DNA of 47,084 bases from a virus. The stretch spans positions 1 to 47,084 of the IMG/VR virus record IMGVR_UViG_3300048596_000020; one strand, written 5' to 3'. The notes under the pieces are model-generated. The model was given only the letters and a program-made list of their open reading frames with translations, did no database searches and was not told where the DNA came from. Below are positions 16,617-47,084 of this stretch, one piece after another. Numbering within the stretch: the first letter of the stretch is position 1; the number at the start of each line of letters is the position of its first letter. Made by a program: the position numbers and the translations under genes.

Positions 16617-17143
16617 CAGGGTTCTCCCGCCAGTAGCTTCGGCAATTCTTCGTGCCCGGTTTTCAGCATCGCATCTTTGGCCAGGCCGATATGCGAATCA
16701 TACGCTGGTGCCAGGAACGGCTTTGCGGGAACGCGGAACGGCTTTTTCAGCGGCACGCCGACCAGCGTGTGATACATGCCCTTTTCATCCTTGAAGAACG
16801 CTTCGGTGCGGCGGTATCCGAACTCGCGCAGCCTGCCCCACCATGCGTCGGTATTGTTCCAACTGATGCGGTAGGTGAAGAGGTTTTCCGAAGAGTGCTT
16901 CTGATCGCGCGCAAGGTAGATGGCGTCGGCCAGGTTGCCAGCGACATCGCTGCTCGCGGATTTGCCATCAGGGTTGTAGACCCAATCGGTGCGTGCGTTG
17001 CTGATGCGAGCGTTGTGTTTCGCCTCTTCCTGCAGCACCTTGCCACCAGCCAGCGCCATGCGGCGGGCAAGAGATTCTTTCAGTGGCCCTGCCAGTCGAT
17101 CCAGGCCCTTGATCCAGCCTGATGCGTCCAGCTTGCTAGCCAT
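16616..17143 (-). CDS. HK97 gp10-like tail completion protein
   Basis: 175 aa. N-terminal helix with WIKGLDRLAGPLKESLARRM; the family-typical end is present: LREFGYRRTEAFF...PAKPFLAPAYD, where Phe-Gly and AKPFLxPA are landmarks of HK97 gp10-type proteins. Neighbours are the head-tail stopper and the tail terminator, so a neck or tail-completion role is expected. It is 8 bp into the upstream gene by overlap. Confidence 0.82.
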   Translation of the reverse strand: MASKLDASGWIKGLDRLAGPLKESLARRMALAGGKVLQEEAKHNARISNARTDWVYNPDGKSASSDVAGNLADAIYLARDQKHSSENLFTYRISWNNTDAWWGRLREFGYRRTEAFFKDEKGMYHTLVGVPLKKPFRVPAKPFLAPAYDSHIGLAKDAMLKTGHEELPKLLAGEP

Positions 17144-17483
17144 CGTTGCCGCCCAACTGGCAAATCAGGTCGGTGTAGTCCTGCAGTTCTTCGTCGTGCC
17201 GGATGCTGATGATGTCGTAGTGCTTGGTGCCGTAGGTCACGCGCATGCCCGTGTCGGGGATGTCAGGCGTATACCGGATGCGCCAACTGCAGGCGTTGAT
17301 CGGCACGCTCGCGCCCTCGGAGCCGCCCTTGATCACTCCCATGCCGGTCTGCGCTTTGTAATTCGCCCAGCGAGTTTTTCCCCACTGCGCCCAATCCTGT
17401 GTCGGCTGATTCAACTCGTTGAGAACGCCACCCTGGCGCTCCAAGGTGATCAGCCGGTTGAGCGCGCCTGCAGGCATGCTCAC
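17136..17483 (-). CDS. Head-tail stopper/adaptor (SPP1 gp16-type)
   Basis: 115 aa. Beta-barrel-like joiner with the usual opening ALNRLITLERQGGVLNE and RIRYTPDIPDTGMRVTYG, then a KHYDIISIRHDEEL strand. It closes the head after packaging and accepts the tail. GTG 17483 overlaps the upstream stop; ATG 17477 is an alternative. Confidence 0.8.
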   Translation of the reverse strand: MSMPAGALNRLITLERQGGVLNELNQPTQDWAQWGKTRWANYKAQTGMGVIKGGSEGASVPINACSWRIRYTPDIPDTGMRVTYGTKHYDIISIRHDEELQDYTDLICQLGGNDG

Positions 17484-23761: not shown

Positions 23762-24235
23762 TCAGCCTCTGATGTTGACCACTTTGCCAGGTGCGGCACT
23801 CGGAGACAGCTTGCCGCCGCGCGCGATCTTCGCAGCATCGTCGTTCTTCTGTTCTTTCTTGCCCTTTTCACCGACACGCGCATGCATGTACGGCATCAGT
23901 TGCTCGGCGGCGCGTGCGCGTGCCGTGATGGAAAGCGACTTGTGATTGATGATGTCCTGCAGGAAGTGCATCGGGTCCGCGTAATGATCACGCTGCATTT
24001 CGACATCGCGGCGCGGCGCACCCGTTTCACCAGGCGGCGTGTCGCCCTTCGCGGCCTGCCGCTTGCCTGCGGCGACTGCCGCCTTCACATGCGCACGCGT
24101 CATCAGTTCGCCGCCTGCCTGGCGCGCACCATTCGGAGAGTAGCCCGCGTGCAACGCGGCGGCTTCGTGTGTCATGCCTGCCACTTTTGCGGCGACGAAC
24201 GCGGCTTGCTTCGGGGTCAGGGGTAGCTTTTTCAT
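23762..24235 (-). CDS. terS: Terminase small subunit
   Basis: 157 aa. N-terminal HTH: LTPKQAAFVAAKVAGMTHEA followed by ALHAGYSPNGARQAGGELM, the typical small-terminase DNA-recognition part. The central helix DHYADPMHFLQDIINHKSLS lies in the oligomerisation region. The C-terminus is basic and disordered. It recognises phage DNA and loads terL. Located between HNH and terL genes as in many HK97-like phages. Confidence 0.88.
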   Translation of the reverse strand: MKKLPLTPKQAAFVAAKVAGMTHEAAALHAGYSPNGARQAGGELMTRAHVKAAVAAGKRQAAKGDTPPGETGAPRRDVEMQRDHYADPMHFLQDIINHKSLSITARARAAEQLMPYMHARVGEKGKKEQKNDDAAKIARGGKLSPSAAPGKVVNIRG

Positions 24236-24287
24236 GGCTTATGGACGTTCTAGAGGGAATTTAATCTGCGCATGCGGGGATGGCGGT

Positions 24288-24300
24288 CTAGGTGTCAACC
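24288..24300 (-). repeat. Variant of the 13-bp motif (GGTTGACACCTAG)
   Basis: Lies in the 88-bp gap between the HNH stop and terS, pointing leftward. The TTGACAC core is intact, but there is no recognisable -10 at 16-18 bp. It may help drive or regulate the leftward late genes; no other late promoter was recognised. Confidence 0.45.
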
Positions 24301-24323
24301 CTAGCACGGAACTTTACCCCCGC

Positions 24324-24659
24324 CTATCCCCTGCGTTCGCGCGCTTGCTTCCATGCTGAGTGACAGTGAGCGCATAACGCCTGCCAGTTATTGCGATCCC
24401 AGAATATTTTAGCGTTGCCATTGTGAGGCTTCACATGGTCAACCGTATCAGCCTCTGTTATCAGCCCTAGCGCACGGCATCGAACACAGAGGGGATTAGC
24501 GCGCAGGAAGTCTGCCCGCGCCTGTTGCCACTGATAGGTATATCCGCGCGCGTTTGCGGTTGCCTTGTCTGCTCGCCATGAATCGGCCAACGGACCATGA
24601 ATAGCCGGGAGCCTGGCTTTCAGCTTTCCTAGTTTCAATTTGTCTTTACCAGTTGACAC
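24324..24659 (-). CDS. HNH endonuclease
   Basis: Core motif: NPLCVRCRALG (Cys pair), ADTVDHVKPHNGN (D-H of HNH), FWDRNNWQALCAHCHSAWKQ (N, H and second Cys pair). Such HNH proteins beside terminase genes are needed for DNA packaging cuts in HK97-like phages. Start: GTG 24659 (111 aa) has AGGGA about 9 nt upstream and places the start in the 13-bp motif. An ATG at 24719 would put the divergent promoter inside the gene and add 20 unconserved-looking residues; a TTG near 24644 is also possible. Confidence 0.88.
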   Translation of the reverse strand: MSTGKDKLKLGKLKARLPAIHGPLADSWRADKATANARGYTYQWQQARADFLRANPLCVRCRALGLITEADTVDHVKPHNGNAKIFWDRNNWQALCAHCHSAWKQARERRG

Positions 24660-24663
24660 TATT
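24651..24663 (+). repeat. 13-bp motif AGTTGACACTATT, copy 1
   Basis: Exact copy, containing a -35-like TTGACA. A good -10 follows only here. See the finding on the motif family. Confidence 0.8.
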
Positions 24664-24680
24664 TCGAATCCCTGTATATT
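24653..24680 (+). promoter_or_regulatory. Sigma70-type promoter for the rightward small-gene operon
   Basis: TTGACA (24653-24658), 16-bp spacer, TATATT (24675-24680). The -35 box is perfect and the -10 matches five of six. The predicted start, near 24687, falls on a perfect 12-bp palindrome GCGCCTAGGCGC (24687-24698). The first gene begins at 24726. The -35 box is part of the 13-bp motif AGTTGACACTATT and overlaps the preferred start of the divergent HNH gene. Confidence 0.75.
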
Positions 24681-24686
24681 GAACGT

Positions 24687-24698
24687 GCGCCTAGGCGC
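24687..24698. promoter_or_regulatory. 12-bp palindrome at the predicted transcription start
   Basis: GCGCCTAGGCGC is a perfect palindrome placed about +1 to +12 of the promoter above. It could be an operator for a dimeric regulator, or a protective 5' hairpin in the RNA. Confidence 0.5.
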
Positions 24699-24725
24699 TT
24701 CCCAACCCTTCAAAGGCAACGGACC

Positions 24726-28171: not shown

Positions 28172-28386
28172 TGCTCGCACTAACTAAAAAATTGGCCGCG
28201 ATTGCGGACAACGGAAGCCGCGAATTCACGCTGGAGGAATTGCGCGTAATGTATAACGCGCTAGTCAATCCCTGCGGCGCTTTCCTGGGTTACTGCGAAG
28301 CGCGCAGGCTGCAGGCTACGAGCGCGCAGGATTCGGAATTCTGGCAACGGCTAGCGGGTTCTGTCCGCAAGGCAGGCACGCTATGA
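28171..28386 (+). CDS. Hypothetical protein (71 aa)
   Basis: Helical protein with LTKKLAAIADNGSREFTLEE; start overlaps upstream stop as TGATG, and its stop overlaps the next start. No family recognised. Confidence 0.65.
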   Translation: MLALTKKLAAIADNGSREFTLEELRVMYNALVNPCGAFLGYCEARRLQATSAQDSEFWQRLAGSVRKAGTL

Positions 28387-28703
28387 ACGCGCGCTTTAAC
28401 GTGACGTGGGAGCGTATAAACGAGCGTGAAGCCTGCGCAGGTGACACGGATAGGCGCGGCATGCTCGGGACCGGCCTAGGCTTGCGTGACGCGTTGCAAA
28501 CTGTCCGCAATGAACCGCCAAGTATGAGCGAATCTCGCGGCACCTATGCCAGCGCGTCCCGGCATGAATGCGCGCGCTGGGTTTCTGCGCAGTTCGAATG
28601 CTGGGAATCCGGCGACACCTTGACGCTATCCGTTCATTTTCCCGAATCCGTCACTAGCGCCAGCCGTGCGCGCTTGTGCCGATTCCTGGCGCGTGCGCTA
28701 TGA
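28383..28703 (+). CDS. Hypothetical protein (106 aa)
   Basis: Soluble, Arg-rich. Opening MNARFNVTWERINEREACAG and C-terminal beta strand DTLTLSVHFPESV. ATGA overlaps on both sides. No family recognised. Confidence 0.65.
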   Translation: MNARFNVTWERINEREACAGDTDRRGMLGTGLGLRDALQTVRNEPPSMSESRGTYASASRHECARWVSAQFECWESGDTLTLSVHFPESVTSASRARLCRFLARAL

Positions 28704-28819
28704 ACGGGAGCGAAAAGGTATGCAAGCGCGTCTGGTATTCGCGCGGGGGATTCTCTAACCCGCGTTGCTGGCGGCGCATGGTCGGGGGAGCGTGGCAATA
28801 CTGGTATAGACACGACTAA
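28700..28819 (+). CDS. Small basic Trp/Arg-rich protein, 39 aa
   Basis: ATG 28700 in an ATGA overlap, TAA at 28819. MNGSEKVCKRVWYSRGGFSN...; 5 Trp and many Arg in 39 residues. It is the last gene before the operon terminator. A peptide this basic and aromatic could bind nucleic acid or membranes; no evidence beyond composition. Confidence 0.5.
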   Translation: MNGSEKVCKRVWYSRGGFSNPRCWRRMVGGAWQYWYRHD

Positions 28820-28847
28820 CAACTAATCGGCAACGCCTGCAAAGGTC

Positions 28848-28882
28848 AACCCGCTATCCGAAAGGCTAGCGGGTTTATTTTT
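28848..28882 (+). terminator. Intrinsic terminator of the rightward small-gene operon
   Basis: Stem AACCCGCTA/TAGCGGGTT (28848-28856 with 28867-28875), extended by CC/GG across one mismatch to a GAAA tetraloop, then TTATTTTT. Lies 29 bp after the last gene and shields the origin candidate. Confidence 0.9.
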
Positions 28883-28946
28883 GCGCGCAATTCCGGGGGA
28901 TAGTGTCAACCCTGGCAATGCCACTAGGACCGCGCAGGACGCGCGC

Positions 28947-28959
28947 AGTTGACACTATT
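28947..28959 (+). repeat. 13-bp motif AGTTGACACTATT, copy 2, in an inverted pair
   Basis: Exact copy, facing a near copy (GGTTGACACTATC) on the minus strand at 28900-28912. Together with flanking CCGGGGG/CCGGG the pair makes an inverted repeat with arms about 35 bp apart. No clear -10 follows. Confidence 0.75.
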
Positions 28960-29028
28960 CCGGGCGTCCACTACTCCCCTAGCGGCTGACACTTTCGCAG
29001 GCGTAGCGGCCCGCGCGCTAGGTTGGCC

Positions 29029-29083
29029 GTGAAACGCACGTTTCACGCTAATCCGATTTCTAGCCGTGAAACCCCCGTTTCAC
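29029..29083. repeat. Two 18-bp palindromes GTGAAAC-N4-GTTTCAC
   Basis: GTGAAACGCACGTTTCAC (29029-29046) and GTGAAACCCCCGTTTCAC (29066-29083), both flanked by CC and GC, repeat distance 37 bp. Perfect dyads of this kind are typical binding sites for dimeric initiator, partition or regulator proteins. They stand directly before the three direct repeats. Confidence 0.85.
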
Positions 29084-29115
29084 GCGTTTCCGCCCCGATC
29101 CTGGCCGACCCCCCG

Positions 29116-29210
29116 TGTGGCGGGATTTTTGGGCTAATTATCGCTGACCCCCTGTGGCGGGATTTTTGGGCCAAATTACACGCGCCTGCCGTGTGGCGGA
29201 ATTTTTGGTT
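29116..29210 (+). repeat. Three iteron-like direct repeats TGTGGCGGGATTTTTGG
   Basis: Copies at 29116-29134 and 29153-29171 (identical over 19 bp) and 29192-29210 (two changes near the middle and end), spaced 37 and 39 bp. Each has a small CCG...CGG dyad before the T-run. They lie between the palindromes and an AT-rich stretch, next to the primase-helicase gene, which is the architecture of an iteron-type replication origin. Confidence 0.8.
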
Positions 29211-29347
29211 TGCAATTTTTCTCAGTCGCCACCCTATGAAAAGAGATATATACAACATGCCTTCAAATCAATTTCCATATTTTGCATAGCTATTGCTATC
29301 TGTTAAATTTCAAACTCCAAACCTATAAACTGTAAAGGGCAGCAGAA

Positions 29348-31909
29348 TCAATGGGTTGGTTGGGTTTGAAGTTGGGTTTGGAGTTGGTCTAGTTCAAGCC
29401 TTGCATCCCCCTTAAAGCCATTCTTGATCCAGATGGTGTGCGTGGAGTTGCGCCACTTCAACTGCTTGGGCAATTTACTGTAGCCCATCCGGGTCAGCAT
29501 GTGATTTAGTGCCATCGTCCTCGGGACTTCAAACCCATCGGTCATCGCCCGAACCTTCAAAGCGTTGGTCAGGCAACTGCTGGAAATCACGTTCCGGCTG
29601 ATCCCATGCGCCCCCTCGCTAATTATAGATTCGGCCACGGACTCGGCATCTTCCTGGCTCGACGCCATCATCTGCATCTTCTCAGGCGTCATCAGGGCGC
29701 TGCCATCCGCATCGAATCCATCCAGCGGCAACGCCAGCAGCCACGCGCGCAGTTCGCCCGCACAGTGCTTCCACGCATGGTCTACGGCATCGGTGCGCGC
29801 CTTCCAACCCGCAGCGTCCAGTCCGCAGTACGTCAACATTTCGGTCAGGCTCGACCAGGGCGTAAAGACAATGAACCAGCGACGGTCGCCCAACTCCAAT
29901 GGAATAGCGTCATTGTGGTTGGTGAAGGCAACATGGTTGGTGATGTTCCAGGTCTTGTATCCCTTGTCGCCTTTCGCATTGACGCTGATGACATCGTTCG
30001 AAATACAATCCTTCATAGCGTTGTAGATGGTGTATCGGATTTTGCCGGTCAGCATGATTTCTTCGATGAAGTTGATCGCGCTGCCAACCTTCCAGTCATC
30101 GAATTGCCCGCTGTTGGTCAGTACGGTGTTGCCGGTCACGCCGACATTGCGGTATCCCATTGCCGCACGCACTGCCGCCGCGACCAGGCTCTTGCCGTCA
30201 CCCTGCGTACCCTTGATCAGCGGCGACCATCGCACCTTCACGCCAGGCCGCTGTACGTTGTGCGCCAACCATCCCAGCAGCGCAGTGAATACGTCCTGCC
30301 TGCGACCGCACATATCCCACAACAACGCCTGCAGTGCCGCGATCCCCGCAATCCCCCGCTCCGTATAGCTCGTCGCCGTGATCGGCACGCTGTTCGCGTT
30401 GTACTTATTCGCGTAGTCGTAGCCGTCCCACGAAAACAGATTCTCTTTGTCAGGCCGATAGCCCAGGTGATGCACGGTCGCAATGTTCCAGCGAGTGAAC
30501 GCCCATTCGACCGGATCTTCCCGCGCGCCACTTTCACGCATCGGCATCAGCCGCGAATACTCCGCACGGAATGACTGATAGCTCAACTCCGAACCGTCCG
30601 CGCAGTTGTAGAAGAAATCGCCCGCCTTGACGTACACATGCTGTTGCATCCACAACGGCGGCTCCGATCCCTTGCCGCCCGCGATCACTGGCGGGAACAG
30701 CAGCGCACGCACCTTGGCAACCGGCAGTTTCGCCTTCCAGATTTCCAGCCGTTCGTTGACGCTGCGCACGATCAGTTCCTGATACGCCCCCGGCACGCCC
30801 GCGCTGCGAATGCTGGGGATGATCAGGTTGTGCATATCCTCCACCGTGCCGCACGCACTCACGGCATCCAACAACGCCTGCACCTGTGCCTTCTGCTCGG
30901 CAGTGATCAACTCGCCCCCAACGCTCTGCACCGTCACAGGCGCACCGCTGCCGTACATTTCAGTCTGCACCGCGATACTGCGCTGCGGTTCCTGGTAGAC
31001 CTGGCTGCAGCCCGCGCACGCATTCGCAATGGTCAACTCGCGCAGGTAGGTGCGATGTTCGTTCCATTTCTCCCGCGCCAGTCCGCTTTTGCGCATCAGC
31101 CGTTCGATCCGCTCTTCATCGCAGCCGGTCCAGAACGCCAGGTGCGAAGCGAGCGCCATATCATGCTCGCTGCTCAACTCCACTTCACCGCGCCACAACT
31201 GGCCGAAGGTAGCCTTGCCTCCGAACACGCTGGCCGCACCCGCACGCGCAGCGAGCGCCTTTGCAATCAGCGCATCATCATCGGCAGGGCCACGCCACTC
31301 GGCGCGCGGACCATCGCCACGCTCGCCAGCCACACGCGGCGGGAAATACTTTCCGATCAGCGTGGCCACCATCGCATCATGGCAACTGTCCGCATTGCCC
31401 TGCGCGATCCCATCCAGGCCGAACGCAATGCCGCGCCCCTCGGTGTAGAACTCCATGTGCAGCTTGTGGATGTCGCGGCTACGATGTTCGCCAATAGGCG
31501 CAGCAGTTTTGCCGATGATATGGATACCGCGCTTGCTGCTGCTCCACTCCATCAGCGCACCGGGGAAGCACGCCGCCATCCCTGCAGCGAACTCAGACAG
31601 CACGCCATCAACAGCACAACCGTCGATGTCGAAGAACCAGTAGCCGCAATCGGCGGTCATCCAGAAGCCCAGCGCATAACGCAGCGCACCTTGGCTCGAC
31701 GCAGCGCGAACATCCAGCAATGCCGCCACGCTCACGGCATCGTCGTAGCGCATCCAGTTCTTCGAATCGCCAGCGTCCAGCTTGAACACGCTGCCGTCAT
31801 TCGCGCACGGAGTTTTCTTGTACTTCGCTTCAACGCCATCCCATTCCAGCCGCCACACGAACCACTGCGGAATGTTCTTCATCCCGCCCAACGCATCATG
31901 CAAACTCAT
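29348..31909 (-). CDS. Primase with C-terminal SF3 (D5-type) helicase
   Basis: 853 aa from ATG 31909, overlapping the methyltransferase-like stop (ATGA). The N-terminal half looks like a primase-polymerase/D5 N-terminal region: IPQWFVWRLEW opening, YWFFDIDG with catalytic Asp-x-Asp (about residue 90), SSSKRGIHIIGK, and EFYTEGRGIAFGLDG. The C-terminal superfamily 3 ATPase: Walker A GTQGDGKS (about 570), Walker B AINFIEEI, sensor VAFTNHNDAIPLELGDRRWF. It would unwind and prime phage DNA. It ends beside the origin candidate. Confidence 0.9.
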   Translation of the reverse strand: MSLHDALGGMKNIPQWFVWRLEWDGVEAKYKKTPCANDGSVFKLDAGDSKNWMRYDDAVSVAALLDVRAASSQGALRYALGFWMTADCGYWFFDIDGCAVDGVLSEFAAGMAACFPGALMEWSSSKRGIHIIGKTAAPIGEHRSRDIHKLHMEFYTEGRGIAFGLDGIAQGNADSCHDAMVATLIGKYFPPRVAGERGDGPRAEWRGPADDDALIAKALAARAGAASVFGGKATFGQLWRGEVELSSEHDMALASHLAFWTGCDEERIERLMRKSGLAREKWNEHRTYLRELTIANACAGCSQVYQEPQRSIAVQTEMYGSGAPVTVQSVGGELITAEQKAQVQALLDAVSACGTVEDMHNLIIPSIRSAGVPGAYQELIVRSVNERLEIWKAKLPVAKVRALLFPPVIAGGKGSEPPLWMQQHVYVKAGDFFYNCADGSELSYQSFRAEYSRLMPMRESGAREDPVEWAFTRWNIATVHHLGYRPDKENLFSWDGYDYANKYNANSVPITATSYTERGIAGIAALQALLWDMCGRRQDVFTALLGWLAHNVQRPGVKVRWSPLIKGTQGDGKSLVAAAVRAAMGYRNVGVTGNTVLTNSGQFDDWKVGSAINFIEEIMLTGKIRYTIYNAMKDCISNDVISVNAKGDKGYKTWNITNHVAFTNHNDAIPLELGDRRWFIVFTPWSSLTEMLTYCGLDAAGWKARTDAVDHAWKHCAGELRAWLLALPLDGFDADGSALMTPEKMQMMASSQEDAESVAESIISEGAHGISRNVISSSCLTNALKVRAMTDGFEVPRTMALNHMLTRMGYSKLPKQLKWRNSTHTIWIKNGFKGDARLELDQLQTQLQTQPTH

Positions 31910-39865: not shown

Positions 39866-40056
39866 GGCAGTTCCACCAGCGCCCAATGCGTCACTTCGCC
39901 ATCCAGCAGTTCGCGCTTGCAGTGAAGGTGGAAGCCATCGCTCTTGATATACATGGCTTGGCACCACACGGTAGTCGCACCATCTGAGACAACAACTGCC
40001 ACAATACAGTCCATCAGGGGGAGTGACGTTTTTACGGGAATCCAGTCAATTGACAC
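39862..40056 (-). CDS. DUF551-type protein (64 aa), first gene of the leftward operon
   Basis: GTG 40056 with GGAG 7 nt upstream. (V)SIDWIPVKTSLPLMDCIVA, then THWALVELP at the end fits DUF551. The start codon lies within the TTGACAC motif of the divergent direction, so no leader exists between the two regulatory sequences. Confidence 0.75.
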   Translation of the reverse strand: MSIDWIPVKTSLPLMDCIVAVVVSDGATTVWCQAMYIKSDGFHLHCKRELLDGEVTHWALVELP

Positions 40057-40089
40057 TGTTTTTCTCCGGTGCTTGCAATTGTGTCAATC
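40048..40089. promoter_or_regulatory. Divergent control region with inverted TTGACAC motifs
   Basis: AATTGACACTGTT (plus, 40048-40060) and its counterpart on minus (40077-40089) face each other about 16 bp apart, between the leftward and rightward replication operons. Rightward, TTGACA is followed after 18 bp by TGCAAT (4 of 6). Leftward no clear -10 is seen. Likely shared regulatory region of both operons. Confidence 0.55.
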
Positions 40090-40145
40090 CTAGTCTATCG
40101 TCTGTTCCGTGGCAACCCCACAACCCATCAACCTACGAGGCTTAT

Positions 40146-46500: not shown

Positions 46501-47084
46501 TCAGTATGAAACGACGATGCAGTAACCATCGGAACCGTTACCGCCTGCGCCGGAAGCAAATCCGTTGAGCGATGCGCCGCCACCGCCACCGCCAGCACCG
46601 TAGCCGCCACCGTTGCCACCAGCACCCGCTGCTGCCGTCTTGCTTGATGCGCCACCGCCACCGCCCGATCCCATGCGCAACGCAAGGTTGGGACTGCCGT
46701 TGCCGCCGTTGCCACCGGGGGCAACACCAGCCGCGCCGGTAGTCGCATAGTCCGACAGCGCGCTATTTACGTTCGTTGCGGTAGCGCGACCTACGCCACC
46801 GTTGGACACGACATCACCCGTGGTGATCCCGCCGCCGCTGCCGCCGCCAGCACTGGCATAGGTTGGTTGACCACCAGCCGCACCGACGAGTCCGGTCGTG
46901 CTGGCTGCGCCGCCACCACCGCCCGTAGACAGCAGTCCTGCGCCCGCTGCACCACCCGCACCCGCTGCTGCTGTTCCGCCCGCGCCACCGCCACCAGCGT
47001 TGCCAGAAAGGTAGGTGCCGAAGGTCGTAGGATTGCCGTTGCCGCCAACGTTGCCGTTGACATCATCAGTGCCCTTGGCAGAAC
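46501..47084 (-). CDS. Collagen-like, glycine-rich tail fibre, C-terminal part
   Basis: Continuation of the fibre gene that begins at 1049. It is open across the whole right end of the window and stops at 46501. It is built of Gly/Ala/Asn-rich runs and ends in a short hydrophobic strand, GYCIVVSY, the kind of ending seen in glycine-rich phage fibre tips. Bases 46958-47084 duplicate 1-127, so 127 bp of the gene is present twice in this linear representation. It should be annotated as one 501-aa gene on the circular map. The 115-aa gene at 46144-46491 follows after 9 bp. Confidence 0.85.
   Translation of the reverse strand, partial: SAKGTDDVNGNVGGNGNPTTFGTYLSGNAGGGGAGGTAAAGAGGAAGAGLLSTGGGGGAASTTGLVGAAGGQPTYASAGGGSGGGITTGDVVSNGGVGRATATNVNSALSDYATTGAAGVAPGGNGGNGSPNLALRMGSGGGGGASSKTAAAGAGGNGGGYGAGGGGGGASLNGFASGAGGNGSDGYCIVVSY
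46958..47084. repeat. 127-bp direct terminal repeat, right copy
   Basis: Exact copy of 1-127; see the left copy. Removing one copy gives a unique length of 46,957 bp. Confidence 0.95.

Follow-up and report, generated by a model that had tools for sequence, protein, structure and literature searches.

The stretch of DNA analysed here (the window) is the whole of IMG/VR record IMGVR_UViG_3300048596_000020, 47,084 bases in length, and has the gene content of a siphophage, with terminase, tail and structural genes as well as PolA, a helicase, an exonuclease and a Gp2.5-like SSB. About 80 bp of its right end (47005–47084) are repeated near the left end (48–127), which reflects either terminal redundancy or an assembly overlap. 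The region of interest lies between a group of small rightward genes, the last of which end at 28703 or 28819, and the primase-helicase gene, which is read from the minus strand and ends at 29348 (Table 1). The two sides end toward each other, so the gap is convergent, and being at the 3′-end of the primase gene it holds no promoter for that gene. An initial annotation had described a 465-bp non-coding gap (28883–29347) bounded on the right by the primase-helicase gene. The gene does adjoin the gap, with its end, but the borders need adjustment: non-coding DNA may start earlier, at about 28820, after an ORF at 28700–28819, and on the right one cluster of the GGTTTGRAG words described below extends past the edge into the primase coding sequence. 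The ORF at 28700–28819 is a possible 39-aa gene that overlaps the end of the 28383–28703 ORF (ATGA) and has a GC3 of 0.73.

Table 1. Coordinates of the features in and around the gap.
Feature	Position	Strand	Remarks
Intrinsic terminator	28847..28882	+	stem CCCGCTATCC/GGCTAGCGGG then TTTATTTTT; -22.6 kcal/mol; closes rightward small-gene operon
Element A1	28897..28910	-	TTGACACTAT-like; promoter/operator-like, dispersed in genome
Element A2	28948..28961	+	GTTGACACTATTCC; AGTTGACACTATT-like
Element A3	28984..28996	+	GGCTGACACTTTC; 37 bp after A2
Palindrome B1	29029..29046	no strand	GTGAAAC-GCAC-GTTTCAC; private to this phage
Palindrome B2	29066..29083	no strand	GTGAAAC-CCCC-GTTTCAC; private to this phage
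Repeat C1	29116..29132	+	TGTGGCGGGATTTTTGG; private to this phage
Repeat C2	29153..29169	+	copy of TGTGGCGGGATTTTTGG repeat
Repeat C3	29192..29208	+	one mismatch; overlaps origin arm 3
Candidate origin arm 3	29207..29215	+	GGTTTGCAA, degenerate iteron; place matches relatives' third cluster
AT-rich tract	29214..29347	no strand	candidate melting region
Candidate origin arm 2	29308..29323	-	GGTTTGGAGTTTGAAA, period-7 pair; candidate iterons
Primase-helicase, 858 aa	29348..31924	-	AEP + NrS-1 HBD + SF3 + C-terminal winged helix; presumed initiator
C-terminal winged-helix coding sequence, residues 740-858	29351..29707	-	presumed iteron reader
Candidate origin arm 1	29359..29386	+	two 12-bp units with GGTTTGAAG, GGTTTGGAG; inside primase gene's last codons

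The strong terminator that had been placed to the left of the gap is indeed there, on the plus strand, as is the AT-rich stretch, of which 29236–29335 has, at 28%, the lowest GC content of any 100-bp window in the 47-kb genome (next 37%). A promoter scan of the gap gave nothing above chance. A minimum in GC skew had been put forward as a marker of the origin; near the gap the cumulative skew instead has a local maximum. As the skew follows gene orientation and is confounded by the convergent genes, we consider it uninformative on the origin. Two further intergenic regions (24236–24725 and 40003–40145), looked at as alternative origins, showed no iterons by eye and have a higher GC content.

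The primase matches the NrS-1 polymerase helix-bundle domain (PF22763, 2.2e-22), its SF3-type helicase region corresponds to DUF5906, and its nearest solved structures are the SaPI5 primase-helicase and the NrS-1 polymerase (PDB matches to N300 and CTR). Judged from its domains, the enzyme has the NrS-1-type architecture of an AEP core, an NrS-1 HBD and an NrS-1-type helicase region. In fold comparisons the C-terminal domain matched generic winged helices at Z below 8, and for this reason we claim the domain at fold level only; at that level the protein also has the PICI/SaPI trait of a Rep with an SF3/D5-type helicase and a putative C-terminal DNA-binding domain.

Repeats of three families lie in the gap to the left of the AT-rich tract, and two of these families had been noted before. 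The GTGAAAC-N4-GTTTCAC palindromes are present as described, 37 bp apart from start to start, and have no further copy in the genome at up to 2 mismatches; single palindromes of this 7+4+7 form are not rare (5 in the genome vs. 4.6 expected), whereas two identical ones are. The three direct repeats TGTGGCGG[G/A]ATTTTTGG, with spacings of 37 and 39 bp, were likewise found, and this 17-bp sequence has no other copy in the genome within 2 mismatches. A coding origin of the repeats had been doubted, and we agree, as the overlapping ORFs at 29043–29258 and 29023–29289 have a GC3 of 0.52–0.54 compared with 0.74 for the primase. The third family, which the initial annotation overlooked, consists of AGTTGACACTATT-like elements. 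Copies at 24653, 28909, 28949, 28986, 35354, 38068, 40050, 40087 and 43041, mostly intergenic, show that the element is not specific to the gap; some have a plausible -10 box, and by its sequence the element seems promoter- or operator-like, reminiscent of stoperators.

All three families have the 37-bp spacing in common. The self-similarity of 28890–29215 is highest at lag 37, which exceeds the other lags by 4.7 sd (3.0 sd for lag 39), and lag 37 is among the top lags in each of three sub-blocks. The spacing is thus real, but at about 3.5 helical turns it is by itself no indication of the single ordered complex that had been read from it. Two known kinds of site were considered for the repeats and rejected. 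For a parS site (TGTTTCACGTGAAACA-like) the order of the half-sites is reversed, the sequence closest to GTTTCACGTGAAAC differs from it at 3 positions, and ParB_N has no match in the window; for the attP of a tyrosine integrase, PF00589 has no match in the 47-kb window.

A further set of repeats, overlooked as well, consists of inverted copies of the word GGTTTGRAG in three clusters. Arms 1 and 2 and the degenerate arm 3 flank the AT-rich tract, and the words span -33 to +140 relative to the primase stop. The combination of a 12-mer in tandem and an inverted copy close by is unique in the genome and occurred in 0 of 40 shuffles, in a test devised after the arms had been seen. Arms 1 and 2 are able to pair (11 bp, with a 51-nt loop), yet they look like iterons.

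The arms were compared with the DNA of 28 phages with related primases (36–53% identity). Alignment searches yielded about two dozen full-length relatives, and Silvanus and Psp6 came from phage records. No relatives of the gap region were found at the DNA level in phage records, nor did searches with the single primase sequence return any from IMG/VR or genome contigs. Directly 3′ of the primase stop, AT- or T-rich DNA in the relatives is surrounded by short words that occur in both orientations. In 24 of the 28 the commonest 8-mer there lies above the 95% shuffle limit; among 40 homologues that are more distant, it does so in none. It is merely at the limit in Psp6 and L025, and no significant repeated word is found in L023 or in L020, one of the two closest full-length relatives. 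The words vary between phages and largely agree within one (GGTTACAAG, GGTAACAGG, GGTCCCAAG, GGTCACAAG, CATTACAGT, CCTGAGAGG, CCATACAAG). Read on the primase-sense strand, arm 1 (CTCCAAACCCAACTTCAAACCCAACC) parallels the relatives' CCTGTAACCCAACCTGTAACCC with a period of 12 and an identical linker, arm 2 (ATAGGTTTGGAGTTTGAAA) parallels AAAGGTTACAAGTTACAAG with a period of 7, and arm 3 (TTGCAAACC) lies 111 bp past arm 2, inside the relatives' range. Compared with most relatives, the words of the window (GGTTTGAAG, GGTTTGGAG, GGTTTGCAA) are few and less uniform. From this comparison we conclude that 29207–29386, which is partly in the primase coding sequence, is the putative conserved core.

The arrangement extends to NrS-1 itself (L175, AB746912), where all 11 genomic copies of GTTACACTT are found at 17062–17377, immediately past the 3′-end of the polymerase gene, which stops at 17051. 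The NrS-1 polymerase primes at 5′-TTTGGTTA and 5′-GTG(G/A) (PMC8718748), and TTTGGTTA lies inside this array; it is absent from the window, which has TTTGGTT at 29204. The NrS-1 array overlaps an annotated hypothetical gene (17055–17456), which may be spurious. Inverted iteron arrays of other words are also present 3′ of a related primase gene in five bacterial contigs (L176, L182, L189, L193 and L196), which are probable prophages.

The palindromes and the TGTGGCGGGATTTTTGG repeats, of which the origin had been said to be built, are found 3′ of the primase in none of the 28 relatives, an absence that the initial annotation had itself named as refuting them. The palindrome pair is absent from IMG/VR, where the TGTGGCGG repeat has 12 single matches, about the estimated chance level, and none with two copies. 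As they are missing from the relatives, and the palindrome pair from IMG/VR, we regard both as additions to the conserved core. It could nevertheless be argued that the private repeats do the work of the origin, in which case the primase or another phage protein would bind TGTGGCGGGATTTTTGG, the palindromes or both, and the GGTTTG arms would be decayed remnants. The B and C repeats are more exact and more regular than the arms, they share the lag-37 regularity, and the C repeats hold GTGG and TTTTTGG, which resemble the priming motifs of the NrS-1 polymerase and by this analogy could be priming sites, although only as a lead. GTGG is, however, common in the genome (145 and 262 copies by strand), and it is the GGTTTG arms that keep the layout of the relatives; together with the restriction of the repeats to this phage, this makes such an origin improbable in our view.

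The repeats on the left side of the core (palindromes, TGTGGCGG repeats and TTGACAC elements) may instead be accessory or regulatory. One form of this idea, which can coexist with an origin, is that 28890–29215 is a separate regulatory region whose operators or promoters control transcripts that run through the origin and the end of the primase gene or are antisense to them. The TTGACAC element recurs between genes, sometimes with a plausible -10 box, the palindromes resemble two-fold dimer sites, and neither is common to the relatives' origins. On the other hand, no gene starts in the convergent gap, no regulator was identified and the promoter scan argues against it, so that we hold this reading as a tentative possibility, somewhat short of an even chance.

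The convergent arrangement, with its one strong terminator and weak terminator-like matches at the C repeats, also raises the question of whether the conserved region is a mere transcription terminator between convergent operons in which the repeats are incidental. We give this hardly any credence, because in most relatives the gene after the primase is co-directional, the words are present in many copies and both orientations and change in concert, and the weak stems are followed by just five T's.

The words change together with one part of the primase. Ten close relatives were assigned, from repeat counts, words of the GTTAC-, GTAAC-, GTCCC- or GTCAC-type. The identity of the C-terminal domain is 90.6% in pairs with the same word and 80.2% in pairs with different words (0 of 5000 label shuffles, which ignore relatedness), and the AEP, HBD, middle and SF3 parts showed no association with the word among these ten. 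The association starts near residue 680 and peaks at 801–840, and residue 821 is a different amino acid for each of the four words. L033 and L041, which have the same word, are identical in the C-terminal domain (1.00) with an N-terminal identity of 0.78, whereas L030 and L041, with different words, have identities of 0.95 in the N-terminal part, 0.99 in the helicase and 0.79 in the C-terminal domain. Masked spacers also associate with the word, more weakly (0.77 vs. 0.67), and since the iterons adjoin the C-terminal codons, physical linkage alone could yield correlated change. We take the association as evidence for a putative cassette and as no proof of binding. In L032, L033 and L035, a few iterons of another word remain 3′ of the primase (e.g. 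GGTAACAAG among GGTCCCAAG), as if word replacement were incomplete.

This association bears on whether the conserved iteron region could instead serve in packaging, as a cos/pac site that the small terminase recognizes. In L030–L041 the next gene looks like terS, from its sequence read by eye, which keeps the idea alive for these phages, and terS follows at 17459 in NrS-1. In the window, however, terS is about 5 kb away (23762–24235), and in Silvanus the primase and terS lie at opposite ends of the record, some 4.9 kb from each other should these ends be joined. Because the region remains next to the primase and its word varies with the primase C-terminal domain, we find a packaging site very unlikely.

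We favor the reading that 29207–29386, i.e., the right half of the gap together with the final ~40 bp of primase coding sequence, is the replication origin of the phage and part of a rep-ori cassette, and we consider this likely. The initial annotation had already proposed an origin in the gap, and with iterons around AT-rich DNA at the same place in those 24 relatives and in NrS-1 this is the best-supported reading; the palindromes and repeats that it named are not the conserved elements. From the architecture, the conserved position and the linked change of word and C-terminal domain observed above, we infer origin activity and, by analogy with SaPI/PICI replicons and pRN1, steps of binding, opening and priming by the primase-helicase. 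Its C-terminal winged helix would bind the GGTTTGRAG iterons, in both orientations around the AT-rich DNA, an SF3 ring would assemble and melt the AT tract, and the AEP/HBD part would lay primers, which the phage PolA, SSB and helicase would then extend.

Origins of SaPIs and PICIs lie immediately 3′ of rep, with iteron sets around AT-rich DNA that are recognized by the C-terminal domain of Rep (PMC6092414, PMC7581432). The window resembles these systems (e.g., SaPI5 PriRep1 and the E. coli PICIs) in its primase-helicase with a putative C-terminal DNA-binding domain, the SaPI5 enzyme being among its sequence and fold matches, in the candidate iterons on both sides of AT-rich DNA, and in the position of the candidate origin, as the gap begins at the primase stop. 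It differs from them in belonging to a full-size siphophage that encodes PolA, an exonuclease and a Gp2.5-like SSB of its own, in having one iteron arm inside the rep coding sequence, and in its extra private repeats. That the window is a PICI itself can be dismissed, as the 47-kb record has structural and terminase genes and lacks a PF00589 tyrosine integrase. With NrS-1 it shares the AEP, NrS-1 HBD and SF3-type architecture and iterons directly 3′ of the gene, but the array of NrS-1 consists of 11 near-identical GTTACACTT words and the phage lacks a conventional polymerase, whereas the window has 3–5 imperfect GGTTTGRAG words and encodes PolA. Plasmid pRN1 has an essential region 3′ of its AEP, SF3 and winged-helix replication gene (PMC4234260); in this pRN1/phage BIP-1 type, however, the corresponding region is described as a stem-loop of ~100 nt without iterons, and the inverted repeats of the window look like short iterons. 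In Vibrio PLE the DNA-binding domain of the initiator varies together with the origin (PMC8263062), as the C-terminal domain and the iteron word change together here, but that initiator, a RepA_N protein, is unrelated and the origin is organized otherwise. The locus is thus likely of a known rep-ori design with lineage-specific additions.

In the literature that we searched, we found no description of the rep-ori design for full-size phages, nor of the replication start of phages with NrS-1-type primase-polymerases or of primase-downstream origins. For these phages, NrS-1 included, we propose, with confidence evenly balanced for and against, that the winged-helix end and a matching iteron word just past or partly inside the gene form exchangeable specificity cassettes, each moved by recombination as a single block near residue 680 with the remainder of the enzyme left in place, that related phages would fire only their own origins, and that the private 37-bp-spaced array was gained here. 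The conserved candidate origin beside the gene specifies exactly which DNA to use when assaying binding and replication, and the published template motif of NrS-1, TTTGGTTA, can now be placed within an iteron array. Since iteron word and C-terminal domain change in a linked way, they provide a natural specificity code, and our findings suggest that full phages share an origin design described from satellites.
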